Positions 5,353-52,438 of a stretch of 56,239 nucleotides of DNA are shown piece after piece. Location of the stretch: IMG/VR virus record IMGVR_UViG_3300021197_000101, positions 1-56,239 of that record; one strand, written 5' to 3'. The notes below the pieces were generated by a model. The model saw only the letters and a program-made list of their open reading frames with translations. It did no database searches and had not been told where the DNA came from. Position 1 is the stretch's first letter; each line of letters begins with the position of its first letter. The position numbers were made by a program, and so were the translations under genes. This stretch comes from a virus.

Positions 5353-5353
5353 G

Positions 5354-6766: not shown

Positions 6767-7077
6767 TATGTTTGCTCCAATGCACTCACTATTACATCAG
6801 CACTACTTGCTGTATTAGATGTTACCTTTACAGTATCTGTTGTCTCAGCAATTATCTTACCGTCTAAGACAGATATTGCAGAGTTTGCAGGTACAGGTAC
6901 ATCTTTTACAACGTGTGTGTCTGCGACTTTTACAGTGACTCTTATTTGACCGCTTGTCACGTTTGCGATATTACAACCAATTATAACAGAGGTTGTACTT
7001 GAAGGTACGGTGTAGATTGTTACTTCTGAAGTACCTACAGCCGAACTACTTACATAATTTTTAAATGTGTTTGCCAT
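6766..7077 (-). CDS. Small beta-rich virion protein of the fibre cluster
   Basis: The protein has 103 residues and begins MANTFKNYVSSSAVGTSEVTIYTVPS. Alternating hydrophobic residues and many T, S and V predict an all-beta fold. Proteins with the same opening (a FKN motif, then VYT.P...T.VIIG) occur beside fibre and baseplate genes of many marine phages. It sits between two fibre genes with a TAATG-type overlap into the next. Probably a small structural or fibre-assembly protein. Confidence 0.72.
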   Translation of the reverse strand: MANTFKNYVSSSAVGTSEVTIYTVPSSTTSVIIGCNIANVTSGQIRVTVKVADTHVVKDVPVPANSAISVLDGKIIAETTDTVKVTSNTASSADVIVSALEQT

Positions 7078-11071: not shown

Positions 11072-11074
11072 TTA

Positions 11075-11809
11075 TTAGTTGACCTGAATGGCAGTAGCAG
11101 CTGTATTTCTGGTTACAATAGTAGATCTAAGATAGTCATAACGGTTAATATATAGACCCCTCATTTGTTTTATTTCAGTCTCAAACTTTGTTTGCATAAG
11201 CATAGACTCTTGTGACTCACCTCTAAACATATAAGCAAAGTGCATTGCACCGTTTACAATAACATGTCTAAATTGTTCTGGTACTGTAGGTACATCAGTA
11301 TCGTTTATTAAATCAACAGGTAATCTATAGTATTCATAAACTAATTCATACGCTTTATCTGGTGGAGCTATTATACCAAATCCATCATCTGGAGTTCTAA
11401 AAACAAACTCTGGTAATGCCCTAATGCCAGTTGAAGTATTGTATTCATAATCAGAATACTTTTCTAAATATTCTTCATAAGATAATAAACGAAGTTTTCT
11501 AGTATTGTTTCCTAGTGTATCATTTCGTTTAATACGAAAACTATCAAAGTCTATTGTTTTAGAATCAGTAGGAGATGCATACCGTACTAAACCTGCAGTT
11601 AATGTTTCAGTTTCTTCTACGTGATTAAATGGCCACTCATATTCATGTTGATTTATAAAACGAATTGAAGAATTAACTGAATCTTTAACCATAGAATATT
11701 CACCGGTGGCTGTAAGAAAGTTTGCGTTTACTCCTGTACCACCTGTAAGTTCAACTTCATTAAGTCTACGGTTTACGTCATTGACAATTCCAATATAATC
11801 ATATGCCAT
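11075..11809 (-). CDS. Tail tubular protein A, T7 gp11-like
   Basis: The 244-residue protein contains IVNDVNRRLNEVEL at the N-terminus, a central REL-type region with LRLLSYEEYLEKYSDYE and a C-terminal FRHVIVNGAMHFAYMFRGE motif. These are hallmarks of the gp11/gp4-type adaptor that forms a ring between portal and nozzle in short-tailed phages. AGGAA precedes the ATG at a suitable distance. Its position directly before the nozzle gene supports the call. Confidence 0.85.
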   Translation of the reverse strand: MAYDYIGIVNDVNRRLNEVELTGGTGVNANFLTATGEYSMVKDSVNSSIRFINQHEYEWPFNHVEETETLTAGLVRYASPTDSKTIDFDSFRIKRNDTLGNNTRKLRLLSYEEYLEKYSDYEYNTSTGIRALPEFVFRTPDDGFGIIAPPDKAYELVYEYYRLPVDLINDTDVPTVPEQFRHVIVNGAMHFAYMFRGESQESMLMQTKFETEIKQMRGLYINRYDYLRSTIVTRNTAATAIQVN

Positions 11810-16438: not shown

Positions 16439-18355
16439 TTATTTCTTTTTCTTTTTCATTAAGCCGCCTTTGTTCATTCCTCCACGGCCTGATCCCTTGC
16501 CAAGATCTCCTTTTCCACCGGTAGACTTAGTTGCTGAAGTACTTTTACCGTAACCCCCTGATCCTGTTTGAGTTGTTTTAGCAACACTTTGATTAGCTTT
16601 AGCAGCTTGATCTCTAATAGATTTTGCTCTAGCTTGTGCATTAGCCATCATTTGTGAGGCAGTACTTGGTCCATCATCATTTCCTTGTATTTGTCTACGT
16701 AAGGCAGCTGTTTCAGTTCCAGTGTCATCATCTTTTTTAAAGGTTGTACTTGTAGAAACTCCTTCAAGTTTAGAGGTATCAATATACTCAGGTTGTGCAG
16801 CAGCTCTTTTCTCTGCTTCTCGTTTTCTTCTTTCTCTAACACTTACTTCGTATTTAGCTAGGTATTTTTCATAGTCTCTATCATCTTTAAACAAGTCTTT
16901 ACCATCTATAATACTTTTCATTCCCCTATCTAATTTAATACCATGCTCTCCAGCTGCTTGTATAGCAAACCTATCGCCATCAATCATTTCTGTAGGAGTT
17001 AATTTTAAAGCACCTGTCCTTGCTTTATTCCATTCTTCTAATAATTGTTTAGCTTTTCCCTCTTCACCTTGAGCTTGTAAAAGAATAATGTGGGCTGCAC
17101 TATGAGCCATCTTTGTTCCTTTTTCAAACGTTCCTAATAAACCGGGAAGGTTTGAACCTGCAGATATTGTTTCACCTGTTTGTTTTGCAAGTTCCTCTAC
17201 ATCATAGTAGTTATAACCTTCCATCCATGCATCAGGATCTGGCTTAGGTAGGTTTGGACCACCGTCATCATCATTTCCACCACCACCTTGTGGTTGAGCT
17301 GCTTGTTGTACTCTAGGTATACACATATTAGTTTCTGGATCAAAGTCCATACCCATCTTATCACAGTTTTCTACTGAAGGAATAGATGAGTCTGCTCCAC
17401 CACCAGTCATTGTTACTGGATCTGGAGGAGCCATGTAGGTAGCACCCGGAGTTGCGAATATCGGATTTATAGTTGTAGGACTTGCAATGTAATTATAAGC
17501 TGCTGCTGAGTCAGCATCTATGTTAGGAACTGTTGGCATTGGAACTACTGAACCACCGGGATTAAAACCTCTAGGAGGTGGCGGTGGGTTAGCTTGATCC
17601 ATTTGTTCTGGACTCATCATAGCTTGAGTACGGTTTTGCATATCCATATTTTGTGGGTTGTCAGCCATAACGTTGCTAACTTGCTGATCCATTTTAGTAG
17701 GATTGTTATAAGGGTTTGATGTAGCACCACCAACGTTGTATCCTACCCCTGTATCTACTGGCATTGTTTGCTCGTTACCTTGCATCATACCACCCTGATT
17801 CATAGCATCCATTGGCATATCCACAGGCTCTCCACCTATTCTACCATTAGATTCCATGTCAGCTAAACCTCTTTTAGCATCCATTCTTAAATCTTCAAAA
17901 AACTTTACACCAAAGTATTGAACGACATCAGCAGGAACTACATACTCACCTTCGGATAGTTGAGCAGGTATATCATCTCTAACCTCACTAGCCATAGAAC
18001 CCGGAGGCACATCATTACCTGACACTGGATCTACATCCATACCGTCATCCTTTAAACCACCTTCTTGCATGAAGGCCATTTGCATTTGATCTTTCATAAC
18101 TGTACCACCTTCATTGTATAATCTCTCACCTTTAATATGTTTTCTGTATAACTCTGGATATTTTTGTTTAGCTTTTCTTTCATCTTCGTACAAGTCCTGA
18201 TAAAAAGCACGTACAATTGGTGGACCTGTTTTAAAAGAAATTTCGTCAAAACCTATTGCATCATAAGCATCTTTTAATTTTTCTATGTATTCTTCAATCT
18301 TTGGTTTTACAAATTCTTCAAAACGATTCTTAGGTTTTTTCTTTCTACTACTCAC
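16439..18355 (-). CDS. Head-associated marine phage protein, Pro/Gln/Gly-rich
   Basis: Translation most likely starts at GTG 18355 (MSSRKKKPKNRFEEF), with GGAGG 8 bases before it and the codon overlapping the upstream stop; this gives 638 residues. A block near residues 100-165 (GLKDDGMDVDPVSGNDVPPGS, IPAQLSEGEYVVPADVV, GVKFFEDLR) is strongly conserved in marine phages and is followed by low-complexity Q, N, M and P sequence. The C-terminus is basic and Gly/Lys-rich (GGMNKGGLMKKKKK). It lies between portal-side genes and scaffold, so it is probably a head protein; function is unknown. Confidence 0.75.
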   Translation of the reverse strand: MSSRKKKPKNRFEEFVKPKIEEYIEKLKDAYDAIGFDEISFKTGPPIVRAFYQDLYEDERKAKQKYPELYRKHIKGERLYNEGGTVMKDQMQMAFMQEGGLKDDGMDVDPVSGNDVPPGSMASEVRDDIPAQLSEGEYVVPADVVQYFGVKFFEDLRMDAKRGLADMESNGRIGGEPVDMPMDAMNQGGMMQGNEQTMPVDTGVGYNVGGATSNPYNNPTKMDQQVSNVMADNPQNMDMQNRTQAMMSPEQMDQANPPPPPRGFNPGGSVVPMPTVPNIDADSAAAYNYIASPTTINPIFATPGATYMAPPDPVTMTGGGADSSIPSVENCDKMGMDFDPETNMCIPRVQQAAQPQGGGGNDDDGGPNLPKPDPDAWMEGYNYYDVEELAKQTGETISAGSNLPGLLGTFEKGTKMAHSAAHIILLQAQGEEGKAKQLLEEWNKARTGALKLTPTEMIDGDRFAIQAAGEHGIKLDRGMKSIIDGKDLFKDDRDYEKYLAKYEVSVRERRKREAEKRAAAQPEYIDTSKLEGVSTSTTFKKDDDTGTETAALRRQIQGNDDGPSTASQMMANAQARAKSIRDQAAKANQSVAKTTQTGSGGYGKSTSATKSTGGKGDLGKGSGRGGMNKGGLMKKKKK

Positions 18356-21300
18356 GGACAAGTCCTCCACCACTAAACTTTGGTTTTTCTAAATCGTATA
18401 TTTCTTTCATCTTTGATATGTCAATTACGACACCCTGTGTACTAAGACCTTCATATCCTCGAAAAGGTTTATACGGTAATTCTACACCAGTTTCTATTAT
18501 TATTTCTGGATATTCTTTTTTAAATTTATCTAAAGCTTTACGAAAATCTGTTACATAGTTTTTATAAAGAGCATTACCTTCTGTAAGAACAGGCGAACCA
18601 TCTTCATTATATACAAGATCACCTTGAGCATCTTTTTTAATTGATTTATTATCTATTGCAGCTTTTAATTTGTCACCTTGAAATCTTCTTGCAGCAATCA
18701 TATCAAAACTAGGAAAGACAATCTTATCTATACCCATATCATTAGCTTGATTAATTAAAGCTTGTATATTTAACTCAACAGATTCAATGTTCTTTTTAAT
18801 AGGTGGAGATCCAAAATTCTCTGGCTCTCTTCTTGCATCTTTATTTGTAGCTCTTTGTTTAGCTATATTTTTATTGCCTAATATGTATTTACTTTCTGAA
18901 GCAAAATATGCGGGTTCTTGTACAAAAGTTAAAATTTGAGCTAATAGTTCTTGGGCATCATCACCCTCTCCCATAGTAATTTTACCATCTGCTACATCTT
19001 TTTGTATACTCTCTGTATACTTATTAACTAACTTTATAGAAACTTTATCAGGATCTGGTACAGGAATTACTTCGCCTTTTATTGGAGGTTGGTTATCTAA
19101 CTCATCAAAAAATTCTGTTATATCTTTTGCAAGATTATCTGAATAACTTTTTAAATAGGTTGATGCCTCTGGATATAAATCCTGTGAATTAAAAATTGTT
19201 GCATCTACAACTTGTTTAGTTTTTTCTACTGTGTAAGGAATCTTTTTAAATTTTCGATAGCCGTGGGCTAGTAGATCTGATTGAAGTTCTTCTACTAAAA
19301 TAAAGTTTCCGTCTTCCGTTAAACGATCAAATGTACCTGTGTTTTGATCTGTAATTCTAAGTCCTCTTGGAGGCTCATATACACTAAATCTTACATGAGA
19401 TAATGTATTAGTGCCGTAGTGCTGTACTTCAGGCAAGTAACCTCTTCCTTTATAACCTTCACCTACACTACTATATACAGGAACTTCGTAGGTTTTATCT
19501 TTAGCACCACCTTCAAATCCAGCTTTATCTTGTAGTTGATACTGCTCATATCTAGGTGTAGTTAATGGAGAAGCTCTAACATTAAAAGTAGCTGCATCAA
19601 AATCGGGTATTATCTCTCCTCCAAGATCTTCAAGAGTAATCTTTTTATTTTTAAACTCTTGAGTTTTCATAAACTCGGGGATGTTTTTAACATTCATTCT
19701 AGGATCGTTTTCAAGTAACTTTAAAAGATCTGCACCCAGTACAGTTTTAGTCATCATTTCTGTATCTAGTTTACCGTCTGGATATAATTTTTTATCTATA
19801 AAATCATATAGTATTTCTTCACCAAGATTTCCAAACTTTCCAGTATTAGTTTGTATTACCTCTTTTCCACCAAGAACTTTTTTATCAATAGAATCTACTA
19901 TGTCTTGAAATGTTATCTCTGTATTAAAACCTTGTGGGCTAGTTAAATATGTATACTCTGCTGGAGTTAAATCTTCAGGATCTAAAAACCTACTTTCATC
20001 AAAATAAGTTACCTTAGTTTTTGAATCTATTACCTTATCGTCAAACTCCATCAGTAAAGCTCTGGTAAGAGGAGATCTAAAGAATTTTTCTAAACCTTCA
20101 TCTCCAAACACCTCATCAAAATTATAAACGCCATAATCCCAACCTTCATCTTTAAATGCACCACCAAAATTTGGAGATACTAATCTTTCAATTTGAGCAC
20201 CGGTTTCATCTACGTCAGTAACTTTAAATGTAAATTCGTAATTTTTAAAAATTTTACCGGGATCTGGAGTATATGCAACAGCCTCATTAAAAAATCTATC
20301 TAATGTTTCTGCTATAGTAACTGTTTGTAGTTTATCTGCTTCTTTAAGCTTTGAGTTAACCATACGCATTTCTGCAGAGGACATACCTTCTTGTTGATCT
20401 AGGTCGCTGTACTTTTTTAGTAATCGGTTTGCTGCTGATAACTTTAAAACTAGACCGGGTTGTTCTGTTAAAAATCTATTAAACTGTTCTTTAACTTGAT
20501 CAGATACTATGTCAGTGGTTATTTTTAAGAACTCATCTCTTTCTTTTAAAGTATTTAGTCTAGCATCTTCATTAAAAAAAGTTTTAGTATCACTTTTTAG
20601 TTTAGCATCAGACATTAATGACCCATACTTTTCAAGTACTTTTCTAGATACGGTCTGTTTTAATTTACTATCACCATAGATTTTAGGATCTATAATTGAA
20701 GAACTAGACCTTTTTGTAACAGCCTCATCAAATTTTAAAGGTTTAAACTCTTGTTTAATAACATCGTTATAAGTTAAATTATAAACGTTTTGTAATCTAG
20801 GATTAAAAGCTTTCATATTTTTTGCATCTTCATCAATTAAATCTATAAGTTTATACTCTTCTAGATCAACTTCAACTGGTGCTAAATATTCTTCAACTGG
20901 AGTTTTCTTTTTTCCAAACATTCCAGATACACTAGCCATTCTTAATGAACCTTCTGGAACACTAAAAGCTGATGCACCAAGACTTGTCATAGTAGCTATA
21001 TCTGCAACATCCATCATAGTAACATCACCTGCAGATTTTTTCCCTGTTAGTAAATCTTTAGGTATGCTAACAGTTTCTTTAACCCCCTCTGCAATTGCTT
21101 TAGCTACACCTATCGTTTGTTCTTTAGTAGGCATCTTAGGATCTTTTAAATATTCTTTTGCAGCTGGTATAAAATCTTCTTCTATTTTAGCTCTAAGATT
21201 TCTTTGATCTGGGTTTAATCTTACTGTGTATGTATCGCCAAGTTTAGTTACAAAAACAGGATTACCGACAGCATCTGTACCTATTTCAGTATCTGTAACT

Positions 21301-21440
21301 TGAGCACCCATAGGTCTATCAAAGAACGGTACACTCTCTAAAGGATGCCTAGCTTCTTCAACTACAGGTCTGTCTTTACGTCTTCTCCGACCTTCAGCAT
21401 CAAACAGACTATCCATTTGTTTGGCAAGATTTTCAGCCAT
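18348..21440 (-). CDS. Large polyvalent-type protein encoded next to the portal
   Basis: The 1030-residue protein has a charged N-terminus, a segment GDVTMMDVADIATMTSLGASAF (about 138-159), long helical regions, and near residues 700-960 the motif series HVRF...LVEELQSD...IDKIVFPSFDMIAARR. The E-(L/I)-QSD motif with an upstream HVRF strand and a downstream '(Y/I)D.I.(F/W)..(F/G)...A.R' strand is what I know from domains of large polyvalent proteins of phages and conjugative elements, which are thought to travel with the DNA. The C-terminus ends KPKFSGGGLVRE. The start overlaps the preceding small gene by 8 bases. Injection with the DNA is inference. Confidence 0.75.
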   Translation of the reverse strand: MAENLAKQMDSLFDAEGRRRRKDRPVVEEARHPLESVPFFDRPMGAQVTDTEIGTDAVGNPVFVTKLGDTYTVRLNPDQRNLRAKIEEDFIPAAKEYLKDPKMPTKEQTIGVAKAIAEGVKETVSIPKDLLTGKKSAGDVTMMDVADIATMTSLGASAFSVPEGSLRMASVSGMFGKKKTPVEEYLAPVEVDLEEYKLIDLIDEDAKNMKAFNPRLQNVYNLTYNDVIKQEFKPLKFDEAVTKRSSSSIIDPKIYGDSKLKQTVSRKVLEKYGSLMSDAKLKSDTKTFFNEDARLNTLKERDEFLKITTDIVSDQVKEQFNRFLTEQPGLVLKLSAANRLLKKYSDLDQQEGMSSAEMRMVNSKLKEADKLQTVTIAETLDRFFNEAVAYTPDPGKIFKNYEFTFKVTDVDETGAQIERLVSPNFGGAFKDEGWDYGVYNFDEVFGDEGLEKFFRSPLTRALLMEFDDKVIDSKTKVTYFDESRFLDPEDLTPAEYTYLTSPQGFNTEITFQDIVDSIDKKVLGGKEVIQTNTGKFGNLGEEILYDFIDKKLYPDGKLDTEMMTKTVLGADLLKLLENDPRMNVKNIPEFMKTQEFKNKKITLEDLGGEIIPDFDAATFNVRASPLTTPRYEQYQLQDKAGFEGGAKDKTYEVPVYSSVGEGYKGRGYLPEVQHYGTNTLSHVRFSVYEPPRGLRITDQNTGTFDRLTEDGNFILVEELQSDLLAHGYRKFKKIPYTVEKTKQVVDATIFNSQDLYPEASTYLKSYSDNLAKDITEFFDELDNQPPIKGEVIPVPDPDKVSIKLVNKYTESIQKDVADGKITMGEGDDAQELLAQILTFVQEPAYFASESKYILGNKNIAKQRATNKDARREPENFGSPPIKKNIESVELNIQALINQANDMGIDKIVFPSFDMIAARRFQGDKLKAAIDNKSIKKDAQGDLVYNEDGSPVLTEGNALYKNYVTDFRKALDKFKKEYPEIIIETGVELPYKPFRGYEGLSTQGVVIDISKMKEIYDLEKPKFSGGGLVRE

Positions 21441-21627
21441 CGTTGTTTACTCTGTCCCTAAGCATAGCTAAAGATTTTAATGCACGAATCTCTCCTTGAA
21501 GTCTGTATATTTCTTCAATCTCTGTTCGCTGTTCTAACTGTCGATAAGCAAATGCAATACGAATATTAAACTCATCAAGCATTGCATCCCATTGAGGTTT
21601 ATTATTAACTACTAATTTTAGGCTCAT
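21433..21627 (-). CDS. 64-residue protein coupled to the portal gene
   Basis: The protein (MSLKLVVNNKPQWDAMLDEFN...) is mostly helical, with RQLEQRTEIEEIYRLQGEIRALKSL forming the likely coiled coil. Short proteins with 'QLE..T...EIYR.QGEIRAL..L' follow portal genes in many phages. It overlaps the portal stop by 4 bases and the next gene by 8 bases. Unknown role, probably head-assembly related. Confidence 0.75.
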   Translation of the reverse strand: MSLKLVVNNKPQWDAMLDEFNIRIAFAYRQLEQRTEIEEIYRLQGEIRALKSLAMLRDRVNNDG

Positions 21628-23753
21628 GCAGCACCCTGTTGGCCAGTATTAGCTGAGAAGCCCTGTTCTCCCGGCTGAGGTGCTGTACCTATACCGATGT
21701 TACCACCCCCACCTCCAGCGGTATCCTGTACTTGTGGAGGCGCTCCTTGCCCCTGTGGAGCTATTGGCTGTCCATCAGGTCCAACTTGTGGTTGTTGTTG
21801 GGGTGGTGGGTTTGCTTCTTGAAACTTTTTAAGTATCTCTGCTTGTACTGCAGCATCAGACATAGAGTTAGTTAGTTTATCTGGATCAAGATCCATAGAC
21901 TTAGCAATCTCACGAATGATATAATCCATCTTAGCAAACGGTGCTAGTACTGGATTCTGTACAACTTGTAGGAACTGCATCAGTCTCTGGCTACGTACTT
22001 CATTAGCCATCAGTGATTCAGTACCACGAGCCTTTACATCTAAGTCACCTTTAATCTGTGGATCAAAGTCAAACTGCATGTTAAAATGATAGAATGATTT
22101 TGCTATCGGTGCTAGTAAATAATCATCCACATTTTTGATAACATTACGTATGCTGCCGTTAGCAGCAGACATAAGCATACTGATTCCAGAAGCAGTACGC
22201 CCCACTCCTTGAACTCCTGTTTGACCATGTGCAAAAGATGGGAAACCTGTAGACTCATCTGCTAGTACCCTCGCTTTATCAAACATCTGCATGTTTTCAT
22301 TTGATACGTTTGGAAACTTAGTTCCAAAGATTGCCTGACCCGGAGCACCGCCCTGTCTGCGGAAGACCTTGCCCGGATATACCGACAAGTCTTGACCCGG
22401 AGTTAGGTTTGTCTCATCAACCTCGATGAGCATGTTACCCGACAGTGCAGCGTTATCAACTGCCATACGCATAAAACCATTCATTAGTGTTTGGGTATCG
22501 TCCATGTTTTCTGCTAGACCAACGCCAAACATATTGTATGGGTTTACCTCATATGGAACTGCATAGTAAGGTATAATAGATGGGGTGAACGGATTCATGA
22601 CAAGTCTTAGGACTTGACCATTACATGTCCAAATGTTTACAGAGACTTGCTCCATATCTTTTAGTTCATCTGGAATGTCTACATCATGTCCTTCTAAGAC
22701 ATCAGTATCAACGTTCCCCCAAAACTCAAGAACTTCAAACCTTTCGGATCTAGATTCCTGAGCATCATCTTCCATGACTTGCTCCCACCACTCCTTGGTA
22801 TAAGACTCACCCATAGATATTGAAGTGTCGATGGCATTTGCACGGAAGAAAGGACGATTCTTTAGAGAACGTATTTGAGATCTAGACATCTTGTGTCTTT
22901 CTACTACGTACTCGGCCTCGTCCATATTAGCTGCATCTGGGTCTGGATAGAAGTTCCAGATAGATACAGAAGAAGTTTGTGGGACTGTTTTAAACGTAGG
23001 TGAGTATTCACCTTCATCATTCCAATTAGAATATTCTTTGTCTACAGCAAACGGACCTTTCATAATTCCTGTGCCAAACAATGCAGTTTCAAAAGCTGCA
23101 ACTCGTAATTGTTTTTTTGCACCGGACTCTTCTAGCTGATCATGGATTTTCTTTTCCATCTTTTTAGCTGAGATCATTGCTGGATGTATAGTAATTTCTG
23201 TGGGTGTTTTACCTTCACCCTCTTCTAGTTTATCTACGACTGGTGTTAGCTTTTGTTCCATACTAGCTAAACGCTCAGTCAGATCTACGATAGTTTCACC
23301 GGGTCTAAGCTTTGTATCTTCTGGGGCAAACTGTTGTTTGGCTTCATCCATCTGATCATTAGACTCAAAGTGTACAGACTCAGCTGCACCCTCCGGTAAA
23401 GTTGTTGGGTCTATAGATATAGGAAACTTGTTGTTTCCAAAAAGAACTTCTACAATCTGACCATAAGCTGCAAGTACTTTTGTTTTTGTAACCTTAACAA
23501 ATACTTGAGATTTTTCTGTGGAAGTAAATTGAACATCTGGTCCGTATAAACCACGATAGTTACGATAAGCTTTTACCCAACGTTGTTCTTCTGTCTCACG
23601 AGCTGTAGAAGCCTTACTATAACGATCTTGAACTAAGCCTACAATGGTTCCTGATAAAGGATCTGAGTATGTTTCTTTATCCATATCTTCAACAGCTTGA
23701 CTTTCTATAGAGTCCATTGCCATTTCGTTTTCAAAAGTTTCTTCTTCTGCCAT
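21624..23753 (-). CDS. Portal protein
   Basis: This 709-residue protein matches the size of P22-like and marine podovirus portals. An N-terminal acidic region leads to DRYSKASTARETEEQRWVKAYRNYRGLYGP (about 45-75), a stem-like central domain with NMFGVGLAENMDDTQTLMNGFMRM (about 410-433), and a C-terminal P/Q-rich tail. I set the start at the ATG at 23753, which has GAAGG 7 bases upstream and overlaps the stop of the zinc-ribbon gene (TAATG); a TTG 15 bases upstream is less likely. It forms the dodecameric DNA channel and binds TerL. Confidence 0.87.
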   Translation of the reverse strand: MAEEETFENEMAMDSIESQAVEDMDKETYSDPLSGTIVGLVQDRYSKASTARETEEQRWVKAYRNYRGLYGPDVQFTSTEKSQVFVKVTKTKVLAAYGQIVEVLFGNNKFPISIDPTTLPEGAAESVHFESNDQMDEAKQQFAPEDTKLRPGETIVDLTERLASMEQKLTPVVDKLEEGEGKTPTEITIHPAMISAKKMEKKIHDQLEESGAKKQLRVAAFETALFGTGIMKGPFAVDKEYSNWNDEGEYSPTFKTVPQTSSVSIWNFYPDPDAANMDEAEYVVERHKMSRSQIRSLKNRPFFRANAIDTSISMGESYTKEWWEQVMEDDAQESRSERFEVLEFWGNVDTDVLEGHDVDIPDELKDMEQVSVNIWTCNGQVLRLVMNPFTPSIIPYYAVPYEVNPYNMFGVGLAENMDDTQTLMNGFMRMAVDNAALSGNMLIEVDETNLTPGQDLSVYPGKVFRRQGGAPGQAIFGTKFPNVSNENMQMFDKARVLADESTGFPSFAHGQTGVQGVGRTASGISMLMSAANGSIRNVIKNVDDYLLAPIAKSFYHFNMQFDFDPQIKGDLDVKARGTESLMANEVRSQRLMQFLQVVQNPVLAPFAKMDYIIREIAKSMDLDPDKLTNSMSDAAVQAEILKKFQEANPPPQQQPQVGPDGQPIAPQGQGAPPQVQDTAGGGGGNIGIGTAPQPGEQGFSANTGQQGAA

Positions 23754-33940: not shown

Positions 33941-34309
33941 ATGGCAAATTCTAAAGGACATCGTTACGCAAATTCATTCAAGCATGAGGTGTGCCAATAC
34001 TATGAGCATCACACACGCAATGACACAGAGGCCAAGTATGGTGTGGCAGGGAAAACTATAAGTAAGTGGCGTGTGGCTCTAGGTTACCGCAACAAATTCT
34101 TTGGCCGCAATATGTACACTGAAGGTATGCAACCTGCCTTGAAGAAACGTCAGCAAAGGGATTGGATGGTTACGAAAAAAGATAATGCATTCCTGTTAAA
34201 TGAGGTGAGTGACTTGAGAATTGAACTCATGAATAAAGACATGGATAATCTGTGGCTAAAAGAAAAGCTAATAGCTATAGCTGATGCTATCAAAACTATG
34301 GAGGCGTAA
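33941..34309 (+). CDS. Early helix-turn-helix protein, transposase-type HTH
   Basis: The 122-residue protein has SFKHEVCQYYEHHTRNDTEAKYGVAGKTISKWRVALGYRNK (about 12-52), the pattern of an OrfA/Sigma-like helix-turn-helix (recognition helix around AGKTISKWR). A C-terminal coiled coil (FLLNEVSDLRIELMNKDMDNLWLKEKL) suggests a dimer. It is the best candidate in the window for a DNA-binding regulator of the palindromic control region. GGAG lies 9 bases before the ATG. No transposase domain follows. Confidence 0.65.
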   Translation: MANSKGHRYANSFKHEVCQYYEHHTRNDTEAKYGVAGKTISKWRVALGYRNKFFGRNMYTEGMQPALKKRQQRDWMVTKKDNAFLLNEVSDLRIELMNKDMDNLWLKEKLIAIADAIKTMEA

Positions 34310-34800
34310 TGAATATATTTGCATTTGACAAGTGTCCGATGCGGTCTGCTCTGTGGTTGGATGACATTCGTAAGAACAAGATGATACTTGAGTCTGCACA
34401 AATGTTGTCCACCGCAGTCAGAGCCTTGTGTCCTGACACTACACTTGAAGTCTACAAATCTGCATACCTAAACCATCCATGCAGTAAGTGGGCTAGACAG
34501 TCTCGTGCTAACTTCCAGTGGCTACTACACCACATGAGTTGGCTATACAATCAGAAATCTGGAGACCACAAGTCTGCCAGACTGATACCTAGGTTCCAAA
34601 AGTATGCAGATGGTGGAGATTTTCCAGATGAATACTTGACACCGTTTGCAAACTGTGCTAGGAATTTAGAACGTGGAGTTGATTATTCAGAAGTAGATGA
34701 TGTGCATCAAGCATATCGAATGTATATGAATGATCGTTGGAAAGAACGTAACATCACCCTGACTTGGCGTTGGGGTGAGGAGCCAGATTGGAGGTCTTAA
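34309..34800 (+). CDS. Conserved phage protein of the MNIF..D..P family
   Basis: The 163-residue protein begins MNIFAFDKCPMRSALWLDDIRKNKMILESAQMLSTAV. Phage proteins with 'MNIF.LD.DP..A......KH..KMI.E.AQ(M/L)L.TA' are common and uncharacterised. The usual CDKHV seems replaced here by LDDIRK. The C-terminal part includes SKWARQSRANFQWLLHH and is Trp-rich. Coupled to both neighbours (TAATG at its start). Confidence 0.72.
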   Translation: MNIFAFDKCPMRSALWLDDIRKNKMILESAQMLSTAVRALCPDTTLEVYKSAYLNHPCSKWARQSRANFQWLLHHMSWLYNQKSGDHKSARLIPRFQKYADGGDFPDEYLTPFANCARNLERGVDYSEVDDVHQAYRMYMNDRWKERNITLTWRWGEEPDWRS

Positions 34801-34801
34801 T

Positions 34802-36451
34802 ATGGCAAATTACACACTCGTTCCAGTAAATACTGATGAGATTAGAAACCATTATGGTGATGATGTATGTGACAAGCTTGTACCATATCAACCACACCTG
34901 TTTGATAATCTTATGTGGGGTAGTGACGATGGTAAACCCACACTCGTTGGTGGTAATGTACAGCTATCTGATGGTAGCTTGTACTACTTGGTTACACCAG
35001 AGAAGTATGGTTTCGTAGTCAAGAAACAGTATCGTGAAGATCCTAACGAGACTGACCCTGTGCTTCGTGAATGGGGTGACTATGATGGTGCATTGTTTAA
35101 TGTCAGTGATCACACCATACAAGATTGGTTTCTGGCTATCATCAATGGTACTGATATATCTTATCAAGGTGATAAGCTATTTACCAGTAATGCTTTCAAA
35201 CCTAAGTACAGGTTACGAGCATTCAACTGTAGACGTTCCACCCAGTATACAGGTAAGATCACCTTGTACAAATCACACAAGGATTTAGATGATGATCGTG
35301 AGACTGCTATGCGACCTGCTCGTGCTATCAAGCTTATGTTCCCTGAGTTCGATCACAATACACTCAATGAGATTACTGATGCATACCTACAGAAGTTTGC
35401 ACCCCGTAAGCTTGTACTTCATACATCTCAAGATCCAGATGCTTTCAAGCTTGCATACTCTGGTGAGCAATCTAACTGTGAGAACATAGAGACTAGCTAC
35501 AAGAGAAAGCATATGTCTCACAGCTGTATGCGATACCCCTTTGACCACCTACCTCAACATCCTGCCGAGGCTTATGCTAGTGGTGACTTCAAGATTATCT
35601 ATGTACTGGATCAAGATGGTCTAGTGTGTAGTAGATGTGTGGTTGCTATGAATACTAATGACCCATCAAATGCACCCCAAGCTGGCCCGATCTATGGTGT
35701 ATCCGAGCAGTCTATTGACATGATCAATGCTCATCTTGTGGATATGTCTGCTCTCATGGCAAGTAGTGCTGACTGGTCTGGTGCTAAACTATGTAGGATA
35801 CCTAACCCTGACGGTGATGGTTTCGTTGCACCTTACCTAGATGTCGGCCCACAATCACTGGATGATGACGGTAAGCATCTTATTATAGACAGCTACGGTA
35901 GTATTGATGCCAGTTGCTACAGTGGTATACTTGGCGGCTATGAGTACACATGTAGATGTTGTGAAGAGGGTCTCAATCAAGATGAGGCATACTTCTCAGA
36001 GACTACAGAGGAATACTACTGTGAGTCCTGTTACTACGAGGAGCATATGTACTGTGACTATGCAGGAACAGATGTACACAGAGATGATACTACTATGGTA
36101 TACATCATGGGTAGTAGTGGTCACAGATATCCTGAGAGAGTAGCTACCAGTGTCATTGAGTACGGTGATGACTTTATTCACTGTGATAGTGACGGTGAGT
36201 ATTGGGACTGTGACAGTGCTGTATACATTGAGTCTGAGGATATCTGGTGTGACCCGATTACTCTTGAGGCTGATTACTTTGAGTGTGATTGGACTAACGA
36301 GTGGTATTCCAATGATGATATGTGTAGAACTGAGGACGGTGAGAAGGTGTGTAAGCAAGCACTGGATGACCATGATGAAGAGTGGTATCTCAGAAAGAGA
36401 GATGGCATCTACTACACTAAACCAGAACCATTAAATGAAGAGGAGCTATAA
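34802..36451 (+). CDS. Large Cys-rich protein coupled to a metallopeptidase gene
   Basis: I chose ATG 34802 (GGAGG 7 bases before) giving 549 residues. The middle carries HSCMRYPFDHLPQHPAEAYASGDFKIIYVLDQDGLVCSRCVV (about 235-280), a motif set found in uncharacterised phage proteins. The C-terminal 170 residues hold a run of zinc-finger-like Cys clusters, with CRCC, YYCESCYYEEHMYC, CDSDGEYWDC and further single Cys, and very many D, E and Y. Several zinc knuckles in series are likely. Its stop overlaps the next start (TAATG), so the two proteins are made together. Function unknown. Confidence 0.72.
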   Translation: MANYTLVPVNTDEIRNHYGDDVCDKLVPYQPHLFDNLMWGSDDGKPTLVGGNVQLSDGSLYYLVTPEKYGFVVKKQYREDPNETDPVLREWGDYDGALFNVSDHTIQDWFLAIINGTDISYQGDKLFTSNAFKPKYRLRAFNCRRSTQYTGKITLYKSHKDLDDDRETAMRPARAIKLMFPEFDHNTLNEITDAYLQKFAPRKLVLHTSQDPDAFKLAYSGEQSNCENIETSYKRKHMSHSCMRYPFDHLPQHPAEAYASGDFKIIYVLDQDGLVCSRCVVAMNTNDPSNAPQAGPIYGVSEQSIDMINAHLVDMSALMASSADWSGAKLCRIPNPDGDGFVAPYLDVGPQSLDDDGKHLIIDSYGSIDASCYSGILGGYEYTCRCCEEGLNQDEAYFSETTEEYYCESCYYEEHMYCDYAGTDVHRDDTTMVYIMGSSGHRYPERVATSVIEYGDDFIHCDSDGEYWDCDSAVYIESEDIWCDPITLEADYFECDWTNEWYSNDDMCRTEDGEKVCKQALDDHDEEWYLRKRDGIYYTKPEPLNEEEL

Positions 36452-37431
36452 TGTATAGTATAATAGAAATGTTGGGGTACATGAGACCCCAAGGATCAGA
36501 CGCACAGCAATTGTTTTGTGAACGATTCATCGAACCAACCTTTGGCAAACCTGATGAGCATGGTAACTACATCTTGCAGATAGGCCACAAACCCAAGCGT
36601 TGCTTTACTGCACACCATGACACTGTGCATAGACAGGGCGGTATGCAAAAGTTAGTTGTTACCAATGACGTAGTGACCGTAGCTGATCCTAAAGTATCTA
36701 GCTGTCTGGGTGCTGACTGTACCTCTGGTGTATACGTCATACTGTCTATGATTGAGGCAGGTATTGAAGGTACGTATGTCATTCACGCAGCTGAAGAGGT
36801 TGGATGTAAGGGTAGCATGGAGATGGTAAGAGACTATCCTATGTGGCTTACCTACACCAAGGCTGTAATATCTTTTGACAGGTACGGTGACAACTCTGTG
36901 ATCACACACCAGATGGGCTTTCGTACTGCATCAGATGCCTTTGCTAATTCATTTGCAGATGCACTCAATATGCCACAGCTCAAGCCTGATACTGGTGGTT
37001 CATACACTGACAGTAATGAGTATGCTGAGATTGTACCTGAGTGTACTAACATCAGTGTTGGTTACTACAGTCAACACAGTACCACTGAGTCACAGGACTT
37101 AGCCTACCTAGAGAAGCTAGTGTATGCATTGGAGAATGCTGACTGGTCTAAGCTAGTGTATGAGCGTGACCCAACTGTTGTCGAGACTATCAGCAGAAGT
37201 AGTCGGTATGGGTACAGCTTTGGCTATGATGACTATGGTTTAGGTAGTTTCAAATACGAAAGTAGTATGGATAATGTAGGTCAACTCTTTGAGATTGTCG
37301 CAGATAATCCTTTTGCTGTCGCTGAGTTACTAGACTCACTAGGTATGACACCACTAGACTTAATGGAGGAGTGTAAGATAGATGATCCTAATCTATATAA
37401 TAAAATACAAGATACTAGATATAGTATGTGA
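36451..37431 (+). CDS. M28/M42-type zinc metallopeptidase or related amidohydrolase
   Basis: The 326-residue protein shows all expected features of the di-zinc peptidase fold: AHHDTVH (H55, D57), LGADCTSG (bridging D89), HAAEEVG (E115 catalytic, E116 ligand), SFDRYG (D143) and QHSTTES (H209). Its length fits the catalytic domain with a C-terminal extension. No signal peptide is seen, so it acts in the cytoplasm. It follows the Cys-rich protein with overlapping codons. Possible substrates are host peptides, a modified phage product or a small metabolite; none is shown. Confidence 0.75.
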   Translation: MYSIIEMLGYMRPQGSDAQQLFCERFIEPTFGKPDEHGNYILQIGHKPKRCFTAHHDTVHRQGGMQKLVVTNDVVTVADPKVSSCLGADCTSGVYVILSMIEAGIEGTYVIHAAEEVGCKGSMEMVRDYPMWLTYTKAVISFDRYGDNSVITHQMGFRTASDAFANSFADALNMPQLKPDTGGSYTDSNEYAEIVPECTNISVGYYSQHSTTESQDLAYLEKLVYALENADWSKLVYERDPTVVETISRSSRYGYSFGYDDYGLGSFKYESSMDNVGQLFEIVADNPFAVAELLDSLGMTPLDLMEECKIDDPNLYNKIQDTRYSM

Positions 37432-37442
37432 CACTGTGTCAC
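37428..37442. promoter_or_regulatory. GTGACAC palindrome at the peptidase stop codon
   Basis: GTGACAC-T-GTGTCAC is a perfect 15-bp inverted repeat covering the peptidase stop codon and lying 18 bases before the next promoter candidate. No T-run follows, so an operator is more likely than a terminator. Confidence 0.4.
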
Positions 37443-37460: not shown

Positions 37461-37489
37461 TTGCATATATGTATTACTTAAAGTATAAC
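37461..37489 (+). promoter_or_regulatory. Sigma-70-like promoter before the integrase operon
   Basis: TTGCAT (37461-37466), 17 bases and TATAAC (37484-37489) match the layout of the packaging promoter candidate at 26257-26285. The spacer and -10 box include an inverted TACTTTAAGTA copy (37475-37485), so whatever binds that repeat would overlap the polymerase. Confidence 0.45.
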
Positions 37490-37549
37490 TATAGGTATTT
37501 AATAATTATAATTAAAAGTTATTATATACTTTAAGTTAAACTTTAAGTA
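37475..37549. repeat. TACTTTAAGT repeat cluster upstream of the integrase
   Basis: One inverted (37475-37485) and two direct copies (37527-37536, 37540-37549) of the repeat lie within 75 bp. Counting the three at 30885-30980, the repeat borders the early segment on both sides. Arm-type integrase sites or operators are both possible. Confidence 0.5.
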
Positions 37550-37562
37550 CGGAAAGGATGAC

Positions 37563-37628
37563 ATGGAAGTATACCGAAAACCTGACGACTCACATGATGA
37601 TTGCACACACTGGATAGGAAAGATATGA
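37563..37628 (+). CDS. 21-residue leader peptide coupled to the integrase
   Basis: ATG 37563, with AAGGA 4-5 bases before it, encodes the 21 residues starting MEVYRKPDDSHDDCTHWIGK. Its stop overlaps the integrase ATG (ATGA at 37625-37628). Coupling may set the level of integrase. Being this short it could be non-functional as a protein. Confidence 0.45.
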   Translation: MEVYRKPDDSHDDCTHWIGKI

Positions 37629-38509
37629 AACTTAAAGATGCTATGAACAAATACTTTAGAACCAGACAGTTTAGCTCCCTGTCTAGATCCTCTCAACTAA
37701 ACTATGAGTATGCTCTAGCATCTATCTGTCGTATGTCTGTTATGGGCAAGACACTTGGCAATGTTAACATCAAGAAGATTAGCTCTGCTATGTGTCTGGA
37801 GATATACGATACAGTAGAACTAGAAACCTCAACATCAAATGCAAACCATATTGCTAGAGTGTTTTCAGTTCTTATGAATTTTCTAATCTCAATAGACGAG
37901 ATACCAAACAACCAGATGGCTAGAGTCAAGAAGAGATCAAGCGAACCTAGATCTGTGGTATGGACACATGACCAAGTGATGTCTTTTCTTGACTCTGCCT
38001 TCAGTAATTTTGAATGGAGAAACATAGGGCTAATTGTCCTCATGTGTTATGAGTGGGGACAGAGACCAATAGACATTCGTAACTTGACTTGGGAATCAGT
38101 TGACCTAGAACAAGGTAAAGTTACAATCACCCAAACTAAACGTGGTGCTACCGTTGAGCTACCAATACCTGACAACTTATTAGATATGCTAACTGAACAG
38201 AAAAAGGATTGGGACTTTCAAGAATATGTAGTACCTCATCACAGGACACAGGACAGCGCCTATAGACCACTAACAGTATCCCAGATGACCTCCCTGCTTG
38301 GAGAAGTTAAGGCTACTGTAGGGCTTCCTGATGACCTGCGAGTTGGTGACTTGAGAAAGACTGCGATAGTACAGATGATTGAAAGTGGAGTAGATCACCT
38401 AGCTATTCAGTCTGTCTCTGGTCATAAGAGTGTGTCAAGTTTAAATCCCTATAATAAATTTAGTTTAAAGACAGCACAGTCTGCTTTGGAAAGGAGACAA
38501 AGACAATGA
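37625..38509 (+). CDS. int: Tyrosine recombinase (integrase)
   Basis: The 294-residue protein has an N-terminal SAM-like core-binding domain (about 1-105) and a catalytic domain with R in WGQRPIDIRNL, K in TQTKRGATVELPIP, R in GDLRKTA, H in SGHKS and Y in NPYNKF. The first His of the usual H-x-x-R box is replaced by Gly (GDLR). I set the start at ATG 37625, overlapping the leader stop; a TTG at 37601 is unlikely. It may integrate the phage or resolve genome ends. It leads the replication operon. Confidence 0.85.
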   Translation: MKLKDAMNKYFRTRQFSSLSRSSQLNYEYALASICRMSVMGKTLGNVNIKKISSAMCLEIYDTVELETSTSNANHIARVFSVLMNFLISIDEIPNNQMARVKKRSSEPRSVVWTHDQVMSFLDSAFSNFEWRNIGLIVLMCYEWGQRPIDIRNLTWESVDLEQGKVTITQTKRGATVELPIPDNLLDMLTEQKKDWDFQEYVVPHHRTQDSAYRPLTVSQMTSLLGEVKATVGLPDDLRVGDLRKTAIVQMIESGVDHLAIQSVSGHKSVSSLNPYNKFSLKTAQSALERRQRQ

Positions 38510-48791: not shown

Positions 48792-49001
48792 ATGAACAAT
48801 ACAAAAAAGAAAACTCTCGAACAAGAAGCTCAAGAGTTTCGTAAATTAAAAATTGTTGAAGAGCCACCTATGTCAGCTCGCATATATCTAGCAGGTCAAG
48901 CACTGTCAGGGTTGCTTGCCGCTAGTCGTGGTGGTTCTGTCAGGCTTAGTGAGGTAAAGAGAGAAGCCTACGAGTGGGCAGATAGAATGCTAGAGGATTA
49001 G
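48792..49001 (+). CDS. 69-residue protein at the end of the early operon
   Basis: The protein (MNNTKKKTLEQEAQEF...) has an EQEAQEFRKLKIVEEPPMSARIYLAGQALSGLLAAS-like helical layout and ends WADRMLED. Its stop codon overlaps, on the other strand, the stop of the 1146-residue virion gene. Unknown function. Confidence 0.62.
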   Translation: MNNTKKKTLEQEAQEFRKLKIVEEPPMSARIYLAGQALSGLLAASRGGSVRLSEVKREAYEWADRMLED

Positions 49002-52000
49002 TTGGTTGCTCTTTTTTTGAGGTATTTCTCGTACTCTAGGTATGCCTCAAGAGTATCTAGCTGTTCATCTGTAAGATCTTTAAACTCAACTTTTTCTCCT
49101 GTTTGTTCTTGCATCATGGCAAGACCTCTGTCAATCTTATTCCAGTTATACTTACTACCTATGTCTATCATCTTGGCTAAAATTATATCATCAGTTTCAT
49201 ATATACCACGTTCCATAAATGTTAGTGTAGTTGCTCTGGCATCACTAAACATATTGTTTACTAAGTTTGTTCTCCACTCTAGTGTAGGTATTATTTTACG
49301 AGAACCTTTAGCTTCCCTAAACTTAGGACTCTTTATCAGTTCAGACGACATGTGTTCTACAACTTCATGAAACAGTTGATTGTATCTATTATCTGCCTTA
49401 GCACTTTTAGTTCTTAGGTTAGCTAAGTAAGTTGGTCTACCAATTATACTCAACACCTTCTTGGTGTCAGACATTTCAACTTCTCTATAGCCAAGTTGTT
49501 TAGCTGCATCTAATTTTATCTTTCCTGTAGCAGCATTAAACTTTTCCTCAGATATATCTTCACCACTTACTACAGCAATGATCTGATCCATATAACGTAG
49601 TGAATTGTTTAATGTTTCACTACCTTCTTTTCTGTTGACCATCTTGTAGTCATTACCTCTGGCTAAACCAACAGCAGTATTAACAGGGTCTAAGAATCTA
49701 GTTGACCCTGATACAGCCTGAGAAAAGATCTTACCCCAAGGTTTAACAAATGATTCTCTAGCTCTACTACCTGCCGAAGTTTCCCAGTCTGTTGCAGCTA
49801 CAACAACAGTATCACCTAGACCATCAGTTATCTGATTAAGCTGTCTTGTAAGTTGTCCCGGTCCAAGCACTTCTATAATCTGAGCTACCTCTTCTCGTGG
49901 TGGTGTTGTTCCATCAAGAGCATAGGAAAGAAGTCTACCTAAACCTTTGGCATGAGATATTGGAAAGTCATACTTTATATCTTTAACACCACCAGTTTTA
50001 CCATCAATAGATTCATTCCAAGCTAAACCAAGTTCTTTATTTAACATTTCATTTTGAGCTAGTCCATATATAGCTGCTAGACCTACTGCACCACGAACAG
50101 TATTTTCTCTGATACCCCTTTGAGTTCCGGTCTTTACACCTGCTATTTGTAGAGCAGCAGTAATACCTGTTCCATCAGACATAAGAGCCATAGTGTTGTT
50201 AAAGAATCTACCAAACGGTATTAACAAACCAAGACCTGCAACATCTCTGGCCTCTTCTATAATCTTAGGTACAAACCCTGCGTCTTTATACGACAAAGCA
50301 AAGGTAGCTTTCTGTGTTTCGTATACTGATTTGTTTAATATATCCATGTACTCTTTACTTGCTATAAGTTTAGCAGCGTTAGGATCATTAAAAAATTCAT
50401 TAAAGTTTTTATTAAAACCTATTCTTAATCCTTTATCTAATTGATGTACAAACTCTTGAGACTTTGTAAGTATGTCTTGACCATGTACAAAGTTTATTGT
50501 TTGCAGTATGTCAATACCCTTATCAACTTGTAAACCCATCATGCTTTTAGAGTAATCTATCTCCCCACCAAAAGCTTTCTTTAAAGCGTCATCAACTTCT
50601 ATACCACCATTCATAGCAAATGTAAGTTGCCTTAGTGCATCAGGATTTTTATTTGCAATGGACATGTATGCATCGTAAGTCATACCTGTATCCATAAGAT
50701 TTTTTAATCTTTGAACTTGTGCTAAACTTAATTGCTTAAAGATACGTAAAGACTCTGCAGCATTTTTACCATCACCTAATATTTTATTTAAACCTGCTTG
50801 ACCTAAGTAAGTTAAAGCAAGTCCTGCATCAGTAATTGTGTTTATGCTGACAGCAGAACCATAACCCACTAGGTTAAGGTAAGATGTACTAGGAGCTGTA
50901 ACAAGTAGACGAATAACTTTACGCTGTGCATCTACTACAGTTTGATTTACTTTACCTAACCAACTAACTTTCTTAGTATCTTTAAGATCTAGTTTGTTGT
51001 CTATGTTAAGTAGTGCTGCAGCAGCATCTGATATAGATACCCCCTCAGCTTGTACTCTTGATATACCTAATCTTTTTGCAAACTGACTTGCAGCATTCAT
51101 CAAGCGACCTTGGTCACTCATCTTTTTTGCAAATATGTCTGCAAAATTTTCCATATTTATTTTTCTTTTACCTGCTTTATCACCAAGATCTACCATCTTG
51201 ATACCAGTAGCTTTAGTAAAATCTTTTATAAATTGTTTTGCAACTTTAGGGTCAGTCTTTTTTAATACATCTGCAATATAATTAGATACACCATCTTCAG
51301 GTGTACGTTTTATAAACACATGTCCTTGCTCTGCAAATATTTGAGCCATACCTTTAATACCAAGATCATCATCACCCATTAAAAATTTAATAAAGAAATC
51401 TGTATCTAAGTCCTGAAGCTCTGCACCACGAAGTGCTTTATCTCTTAATGTTTCGGTAAAAGGTGTATCTTCTTTTAAAATTTTTAGAGCTTCTGTTGGA
51501 TCAAACTTTTTTGGTACTTCTACATCTATGTCTGGTTGTGCCAGTGCATTCTTATTTTTTTGTAGTGCAACTGTACCAAATCTAACACCACCAATAATCA
51601 GAGTTCCTACACCTGCAAGACCTAGATTAATTTTATTTACTTCTTCTTGTACACCAGTTCTTACAAGACCTTTTTCATAGGCATAAGCAGAACCTACATT
51701 GACTGCCATTTCGACAGCCATGTTTGCAGTTATCTCTTTTGCATTAGACTTAAGTCTGTTCTTAATTGTATCGGGGATTTTATCTCTAGCTTCTTTTTTA
51801 GCAACTGCTTTAGTTGCATTATCTTTAGAAACTTTTTTAAATGTTTCAGTGAACACTTTATTAGCTGCTTTTTCTGCAGCTTCTGCGGCAACACCTTGTT
51901 GTAGTTGCCTTCTGTAACTGGCTATAGCGGCTCTCTGTGCTAGTTTAGCAGCAGCTTTACTACCAGTACCAGTAAATAATTTACCTATACCAAAACCAAT

Positions 52001-52438
52001 TAGGTTAACTGGGTCAGCTAGTGTAGTTCTTGTGTAGTCTCCTACGGCTTCTAGTTTTTCTCCTGCAGTAGTCTCTCCACTAAAGACTCCAGCCATGTTT
52101 TCAAAAAGCTCGTATGCTTTACCAACATTTGCTAGTTCTTCAGAGTCATCTTCAAGACTGTTTAGAAATGCTACTTCACCTACAGTTCTTACAGAGTTAC
52201 CACCAGAAAAACCTCTCATGTTATTGAGAAATTTATTTACAACTTCTTCTCTATTATCTTTACGAAACTCATCGACACCAAATCTAGTTTCCATATAGTC
52301 TCTAACTGTACCAAAGTATCTATCACTGGTTAAGTCGTTTTGAGAATATGTTCCAAACTCTATTGGCTCAGGTTGTTGAACTATATTTTGTTCTTCCGAC
52401 ACAGGAGTGCCAGCTAGATAGTCATCAAATGCACCCAT
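48998..52438 (-). CDS. Large internal virion protein (DNA ejection type)
   Basis: The 1146-residue protein has a hydrophilic N-terminus (SQNDLTSDRYFGTVRDYMETRFGV), a hinge TRTTLADPVNLIGFGIGKLF (about 133-152), an Ala-rich helical stretch (165-260), predicted short hydrophobic segments (for example LGLAGVGTLIIGGVRFG near 270) and a C-terminal charged helix. Size, helical character and position beside the transglycosylase and other core genes match gp16-like ejection proteins. It would enter the host envelope and help move DNA across. No catalytic domain was recognised. Confidence 0.75.
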   Translation of the reverse strand: MGAFDDYLAGTPVSEEQNIVQQPEPIEFGTYSQNDLTSDRYFGTVRDYMETRFGVDEFRKDNREEVVNKFLNNMRGFSGGNSVRTVGEVAFLNSLEDDSEELANVGKAYELFENMAGVFSGETTAGEKLEAVGDYTRTTLADPVNLIGFGIGKLFTGTGSKAAAKLAQRAAIASYRRQLQQGVAAEAAEKAANKVFTETFKKVSKDNATKAVAKKEARDKIPDTIKNRLKSNAKEITANMAVEMAVNVGSAYAYEKGLVRTGVQEEVNKINLGLAGVGTLIIGGVRFGTVALQKNKNALAQPDIDVEVPKKFDPTEALKILKEDTPFTETLRDKALRGAELQDLDTDFFIKFLMGDDDLGIKGMAQIFAEQGHVFIKRTPEDGVSNYIADVLKKTDPKVAKQFIKDFTKATGIKMVDLGDKAGKRKINMENFADIFAKKMSDQGRLMNAASQFAKRLGISRVQAEGVSISDAAAALLNIDNKLDLKDTKKVSWLGKVNQTVVDAQRKVIRLLVTAPSTSYLNLVGYGSAVSINTITDAGLALTYLGQAGLNKILGDGKNAAESLRIFKQLSLAQVQRLKNLMDTGMTYDAYMSIANKNPDALRQLTFAMNGGIEVDDALKKAFGGEIDYSKSMMGLQVDKGIDILQTINFVHGQDILTKSQEFVHQLDKGLRIGFNKNFNEFFNDPNAAKLIASKEYMDILNKSVYETQKATFALSYKDAGFVPKIIEEARDVAGLGLLIPFGRFFNNTMALMSDGTGITAALQIAGVKTGTQRGIRENTVRGAVGLAAIYGLAQNEMLNKELGLAWNESIDGKTGGVKDIKYDFPISHAKGLGRLLSYALDGTTPPREEVAQIIEVLGPGQLTRQLNQITDGLGDTVVVAATDWETSAGSRARESFVKPWGKIFSQAVSGSTRFLDPVNTAVGLARGNDYKMVNRKEGSETLNNSLRYMDQIIAVVSGEDISEEKFNAATGKIKLDAAKQLGYREVEMSDTKKVLSIIGRPTYLANLRTKSAKADNRYNQLFHEVVEHMSSELIKSPKFREAKGSRKIIPTLEWRTNLVNNMFSDARATTLTFMERGIYETDDIILAKMIDIGSKYNWNKIDRGLAMMQEQTGEKVEFKDLTDEQLDTLEAYLEYEKYLKKRATN

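Follow-up and report, generated by a model that had tools for sequence, protein, structure and literature searches.

A lid-less di-zinc peptidase and a linked SCM-domain protein form a conserved phage gene pair, possibly acting on peptides or protein ends

In enzymes of peptidase family M20, a lid domain serves substrate binding and dimerisation. Phages carry a family of peptidases, PHROG 4191 ('peptidase'), with homologues detected by tblastn in 367 phage records, mostly from podoviruses of Klebsiella, Pectobacterium, and Vibrio, and also from Thermus phages and megaphages. Both KP34 genes considered here figure in a published core-gene list, one as 'putative peptidase' and the other as 'hypothetical protein' (PMC4411677), and the peptidase is counted among the early core genes of PhiM1-like phages (PMC6115819). 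In both the KP34-like and the PhiM1-like group, the two genes lie in the early block upstream of the primase, a position that suggests action before replication. The pair is present in hundreds of sequenced phages, the well-studied Klebsiella phages of Drulisvirus among them, and the annotation of its second gene goes no further than 'putative peptidase'. An earlier note on the DNA analysed here had called such an enzyme unusual in phage early regions, a description at odds with its annotation in hundreds of phages and its place as a core or early gene in these two groups.

The partner gene encodes a protein whose core contains a Ser-Cys-Met motif, for which the name SCM domain was coined in this analysis. 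A search of open-access literature, which leaves out most subscription papers, turned up neither an account of the two genes as a system nor one of the SCM domain. Of the 'undescribed two-gene module' suspected in the earlier note, the peptidase is therefore not new, whereas the partner and the linkage appear undescribed, and novelty of the SCM superfamily is a real possibility.

The window, by which we mean the whole stretch of viral DNA analysed, is a virus record of 56,239 bases. The sequence confirms two open reading frames joined by a TAATG overlap, as the note had them (Table 1). A GGAGG precedes the ATG of the SCM gene at 34802, and its TAA stop codon (36449-36451) shares one base with the ATG of the peptidase gene at 36451, which runs to a TGA ending at 37431. 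Overlapping or abutting ends are also found in phage KpV475 and at most IMG/VR loci. Directly 5′ of the pair and on the same strand stand two genes, encoding proteins of 122 and 163 residues. The latter falls outside the conserved module, and no PHROG 624 gene is named beside the pair in the records of phages Pasto, KpV475, and TSP4. Elsewhere in the window, proteins of 644, 1030, and 1146 residues (16439-18373, 18348-21440, and 48998-52438) have no PHROG match.

Table 1. Features of the SCM-peptidase locus, in window coordinates
Feature	Coordinates	Strand	Evidence
SCM-LIM protein, 549 aa	34802..36451	+	AlphaFold2 pLDDT 88.9; profile link to jumbo-phage SCM proteins
SCM core domain	35399..35905	+	Multiple alignment; predicted GNAT-like alpha/beta fold
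LIM-like four-cysteine zinc site (C384, C387, C407, C410), putative	35951..36031	+	Cysteine invariance in 49 homologues; weak Pfam LIM matches
Predicted lid-less di-zinc clan MH peptidase (PepT/M28/M42-like), 326 aa	36451..37431	+	PHROG and PDB profile matches; model
TAATG stop-start overlap coupling the SCM and peptidase genes	36449..36453	+	Sequence
Upstream gene of the same operon, 163 aa, PHROG 624 'DNA binding protein'	34309..34800	+	PHROG match

A tyrosine integrase (37601-38509; PF00589, E 1e-20) directly follows the pair, in agreement with the earlier note, and is succeeded by a primase-helicase and a family A DNA polymerase whose closest relative is that of Roseobacter phage CRP-6 (55%). 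A palindrome, GTGACAC-T-GTGTCAC, spans the peptidase stop codon (37428-37442), and a 31-nt AT-rich inverted repeat lies ahead of the integrase (37475-37549), a possible operator, terminator, or attachment site. The integrase is adjacent in the window and its close relatives and near the pair in Rhizobium phage Pasto, which would suit a component of the lysis-lysogeny switch, as the note had also proposed. The same pair is nevertheless present in virulent phages of Drulisvirus, Maculvirus, Corkvirinae, and Thermus, whose displayed stretches contain no integrase, so that a role in this switch is highly improbable.

The second protein is predicted, from its sequence and modelled structure, to be a peptidase: a lid-less two-zinc clan MH enzyme resembling peptidase T. 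It matches PHROG 4191 with an E-value of 6.3e-77 over residues 4-296 of 326. The complete di-zinc site named in the earlier note (H55, D57, D89, E115, E116, D143, and H209) proved exact, all seven residues being invariant in 12 phage homologues, in 49 IMG/VR homologues, and in a set of 11 sequences that includes Thermus, Cellulophaga, and megaphage proteins. Against the PDB, the family profile finds tripeptidase/peptidase T structures best (3rza, E 4e-16; 3gb0, E 5e-14) and also TET1 (2cf4), and in the alignment the motifs HxDTV, LGADD, EExG, and VGYxxxHTxxE are in register with 3rza and 3gb0. The AlphaFold2 model (pLDDT 89, pTM 0.75) likewise has a peptidase fold with the metal residues in place, matching structures of TET1, PepT, and M42, all with E about 1e-8, as well as LysK (5xoy) and DapE.

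With regard to classification, the clan MH di-zinc exopeptidase pattern is present, with the HxD, D, EE, D, and H site in order and an alpha/beta fold. The score against Pfam M28 (PF04389) is 18.9 bits, under the cut-off of 21.3. The catalytic motifs of PepT (M20B) are carried without its lid, and the score against the PepT-like model TIGR01883 is 19.8 where the cut-off is 274. Only 94 residues separate E115 from H209 in the phage peptidase, compared with about 200 in 3rza, which indicates that the M20 lid domain is absent. A pattern scan of 84,980 bacterial and archaeal species returned only 19 loci of this family, 11 of them with an SCM partner, and the family is thus mainly viral. Values of dN/dS against close relatives (0.12-0.18) place the gene under purifying selection at the sequence level.

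The first protein has 549 residues, 20 of them cysteines, and a pI of 4.4. It consists of a variable N-terminal region (residues 1-200), the core (about 200-366), the zinc site, and an acidic tail with scattered cysteines. In the alignment, S241-C242-M243, Y258, R278, Y298, and D347 of the core are invariant, and M243 is retained at 90% or more in two other alignments, including the IMG/VR set. Sequence comparison with close relatives gives dN/dS of about 0.26-0.28, consistent with purifying selection on this gene too. No Pfam or NCBIfam match was obtained, and only a marginal one to PHROG 6980, of unknown function, whose length equals that of KpV475 gp10, the product of the gene directly upstream of the KpV475 peptidase with overlapping ends. 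Annotations read 'hypothetical' everywhere, except for a single DNA mimic (phage KPPK108.1). The series of zinc-knuckle-like clusters described in the earlier note reduces to one four-cysteine set, C384xxC387...C407xxC410, invariant in 49 IMG/VR homologues. Of the other cysteines, C418 is nearly invariant in a subset of 18 sequences, and C242 belongs to the SCM motif in a separate domain. Pfam LIM matches are weak, occurring in six of 49 family members (best E 0.0017) and not in the window protein.

Structure prediction, suggested in the earlier note for this protein as well, gave a locally confident AlphaFold2 model (pLDDT 88.9, pTM 0.52). Its strong matches in a viral structure library are almost all uncharacterised phage proteins, while the top 50 PDB fold matches are essentially all acetyltransferases of the GNAT type, though with low TM-scores (best E 6e-3, probability 0.99). 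Leucyl/phenylalanyl (L/F)-tRNA-protein transferase and the phiKMV-type GNAT Rac offer models of how such a fold could be used: the SCM protein would transfer an acyl or aminoacyl group onto proteins of the host or the phage, and the peptidase would remove or trim it. Clan MH does include deacylases, DapE and LysK being among the fold matches of the peptidase, and GNATs employed in host takeover are already described from phiKMV-like phages (PMC7824862). On the other side, inspection of 39 aligned SCM cores revealed no R/QxxGxG/A acyl-CoA loop, the corresponding position before helix 3 reading YGVSEQ in the window protein and IYTxxDSD in jumbo phages, and hhalign of the SCM family against 13 GNAT sequences gave a probability of 0.1% and no sequence support. 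Given also the weakness of the fold match, addition and removal of a group by the two proteins seems rather unlikely, and the modelled GNAT-like fold of the core is better treated as a lead than as a membership.

Acidity is a common property of the partner proteins, six of the seven checked having a pI of 4.4-4.8, and Glu-rich tails are frequent at their C-termini. An acidic zinc protein beside a LysK-like hydrolase brings to mind the LysW-LysK amino-group carrier, in which case the SCM protein would bear a substrate on its C-terminus for release by the peptidase. In addition to the 5xoy fold match, the KpV475 peptidase gives a weak NCBIfam match to LysK (E 0.036). The C-termini are not conserved, however (EEEL, KDA, ELDA, EEEEE, and RAAA), SCM proteins are about ten times the size of LysW, and no ATP-grasp ligase was present among the window proteins scanned. 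A carrier of this kind was rejected for its variable C-termini and the missing ligase, and retains very little probability.

The association of the two genes is well supported. IMG/VR loci fetched with the peptidase contain an SCM gene in 74 of 79 cases, and those fetched with the SCM protein contain a peptidase in 73 of 76; since the two sets share many contigs, these are reciprocal and not independent tests. All eight loci that lack one of the genes are situated at the end of a contig or close to it, where the longest upstream stretch available is 566 nt. At a few IMG/VR loci the SCM gene runs in the divergent direction or is separated from the peptidase by one gene. Among named phages the pair occurs in Pasto, BDU-MI-1, KpV475, Buco, VP93, and PPWS1, and the groups that carry it include Drulisvirus, Maculvirus, and Corkvirinae and span small podoviruses to the largest known phages.

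Several loci depart from a single intact pair. Pseudomonas phage C171 was considered as a case of an SCM gene without a peptidase and rejected, as the peptidase is split over two frames directly downstream (21287-22098 of the record), by a frameshift or a sequencing error. On a contig of Mesorhizobium sp. STM 4661, SCM genes at 4529-5998 and 8664-9917 and peptidase stretches at about 6001-6858 and 10472-11386 apparently represent two consecutive pairs at one locus. Two IMG/VR loci are also multiple: in one (L283) four SCM genes are interleaved with two peptidases, and in the other (L319) two of each alternate.

Beyond this close clade, the SCM family profile aligns with megaphage and Cellulophaga phage proteins at an hhalign probability of 97.8% (E 9e-13), compared with 0.2-0.3% for controls. 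Gene order is often reversed there and adjacency kept. In the crAss-like Cellulophaga phage phi38:1 the peptidase (gp038) precedes the SCM gene (gp037), in Thermus phage TSP4 the hydrolase comes first with about 340 bases between the two, and in megaphages LR756501 and LR745206 the genes are neighbours. A DNA-pattern scan for FMDRIYT gathered 94 more SCM loci, with a peptidase within 2.5 kb in 15. By lineage, a peptidase lies no more than two genes from SCM in 11 of 51, and DnaK and ClpP in two each. Of the 44 peptidases in jumbo-phage records, 10 lie no more than 1.5 kb from an SCM gene, where 3.3 are expected at random (P 0.0017), a value obtained from records selected for SCM and with a random placement that ignores gene clustering. 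Among SCM-positive records of 128 kb or more, 15 of 16 contain a peptidase, the exception being a 176-kb record (G028).

Megaphage LR756501 (735 kb; stretches L251, L252, L253, L254, and L261) has 15 SCM places by tblastn, several in tandem, and five peptidases. In LR745206, the SCM domain is fused to numerous CxxC repeats with a spacing of about 11 residues (L255:3031-4398 and L256:1902-3299), and the repeats of L255 weakly match BSD2 and DnaJ-type cysteine-rich domains (PF25436, PF00684). One jumbo-phage lineage (L277, L317, L351, L268, and relatives) has an SCM gene adjoining dnaK, with grpE and dnaJ nearby, and ClpP is near SCM in another lineage. A chaperone link was set aside as shared synteny, given that DnaK, DnaJ, GrpE, and ClpP are each associated with at most two SCM lineages.

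Independent occurrence of the two genes, named in the earlier note as grounds for abandoning a joint system, is confined to the fringe: in Thermus phage P74-26 the peptidase is present and no SCM gene or remnant was found, and in jumbo phages a good many SCM paralogues have no peptidase beside them. Elsewhere the genes are together, and near-constant linkage in both directions, through changes of gene order and across unrelated phage groups, upholds the note's proposal that they form one system. Very probably they do one job. The opposing view, that two separate early proteins merely share an operon, would make the first an acidic DNA mimic or anti-restriction protein and the second a general exopeptidase that recycles host peptides to amino acids. 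PepT-like chemistry suits such recycling, an ArdA gene adjoins the SCM gene in Pasto, and the depositors of Klebsiella phage KPPK108.1 named the protein, whose relatives, that of the window included, are mostly acidic, a 'putative DNA mimic protein'. The view is nonetheless doubtful, as the linkage outlasts order reversal and unrelated gene content beyond what operon hitch-hiking explains, the invariant SCM and CxxC residues are unexpected in a DNA mimic, and the BDU-MI-1 protein, with a pI of 6.6, is not acidic.

What the joint task might be can be outlined from the predicted properties of the two proteins. The pair would be a widely conserved phage module that handles peptides or the ends of proteins inside infected cells. 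Its peptidase would be a cytosolic two-zinc exopeptidase of the peptidase T type, with aminopeptidase or tripeptidase chemistry and no lid, and the SCM-zinc protein, presumably co-expressed with it through translational coupling in the shared operon, would most likely stand in for the lid by binding and presenting, or by marking, the substrate. That a relative of the M20 enzymes lacks the lid and is tied to a single partner suggests that the lid's work falls to this partner, and binding to proteins would be in keeping with the SCM protein's zinc site and acidity. We give this reading, in which the module processes peptides or protein ends and the SCM protein presents the substrates, a probability of about 0.4. 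A sensor, adaptor, or substrate-handling role for the first protein, raised in the earlier note, is possible and is the one favoured here. Physical interaction, substrate presentation, timing in infection, and the identity of the substrate are parts of the model that we infer.

Several considerations count against substrate presentation, the lone peptidase of Thermus phage P74-26 among them. M28 enzymes are also without a lid and require no partner. The GNAT-like fold match of the model, which has no sequence support, suggests an enzyme instead of an adaptor and leaves a transferase role open for the SCM protein. Jumbo-phage SCM genes far from a peptidase must act at a distance or alone. If the presenter reading is right, these phages, with several SCM paralogues and one to five peptidases, would process a more diverse set of substrates than small phages, which have one of each. 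Protease adaptor proteins of cells are an analogue for such a widening of targets. Tentatively, and with a probability well short of even, the SCM domain could define an undescribed phage superfamily, the substrate-selecting or -modifying half of viral protein-end processing, with the lid-less peptidase as its common hydrolase and paralogues multiplied in jumbo phages to widen the targets.

The megaphage expansion also resembles the product of an arms race, and together with the early position in Drulisvirus and PhiM1-like phages this may point to counter-defence, the SCM protein recognising a component of host defence and the peptidase inactivating it or removing a peptide-type signal. Such a function is improbable. 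Folded proteins are rarely inactivated by an exopeptidase, a single conserved enzyme serves a very wide host range that includes phages of Thermus and Bacteroidota, and 49 SCM proteins had no meaningful match to PADLOC models. Should the partner instead direct the peptidase, as in the presenter reading, phages would have their own equivalent of protease adaptors, and the families of SCM paralogues in jumbo phages would be accounted for. With a near-obligate partner that is met again in phages of Thermus, in crAss-like phages, and in megaphages, two annotations that led nowhere become a single system open to test.

Compared with described enzymes, the window peptidase is closest by PDB sequence match to the peptidase T/M20B tripeptidases 3rza and 3gb0, with HxDTV, LGADDkaG, EExGxxG, and VGYxxxHTxxE in common, and differs from them in having no lid/dimerisation domain and an extra C-terminal helical region. 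Family M28 is alike in its single catalytic domain and ligand set, although the Pfam score stays below the cut-off. The SCM core is like GNAT acetyltransferases in predicted fold, but differs in having neither CoA motif nor sequence similarity and in the possession of a zinc site. Among phages, Pasto (gp004/gp005) resembles the window in that the pair is followed by an HTH gene with a tyrosine integrase close by, the peptidases being 38% and the SCM proteins 25% identical; an ArdA-like anti-restriction gene stands ahead of the pair in Pasto, where the window has the PHROG 624 gene. The KP34-type phages (Drulisvirus) are virulent, and their SCM protein is only about 20% identical to that of the window, with a different N-terminal region. 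Their gp10/gp11 (PHROG 6980 and PHROG 4191) are nonetheless the same genes in the same order, with overlapping ends and upstream of the primase, and their peptidase is 37% identical to that of the window and has the same seven site residues.
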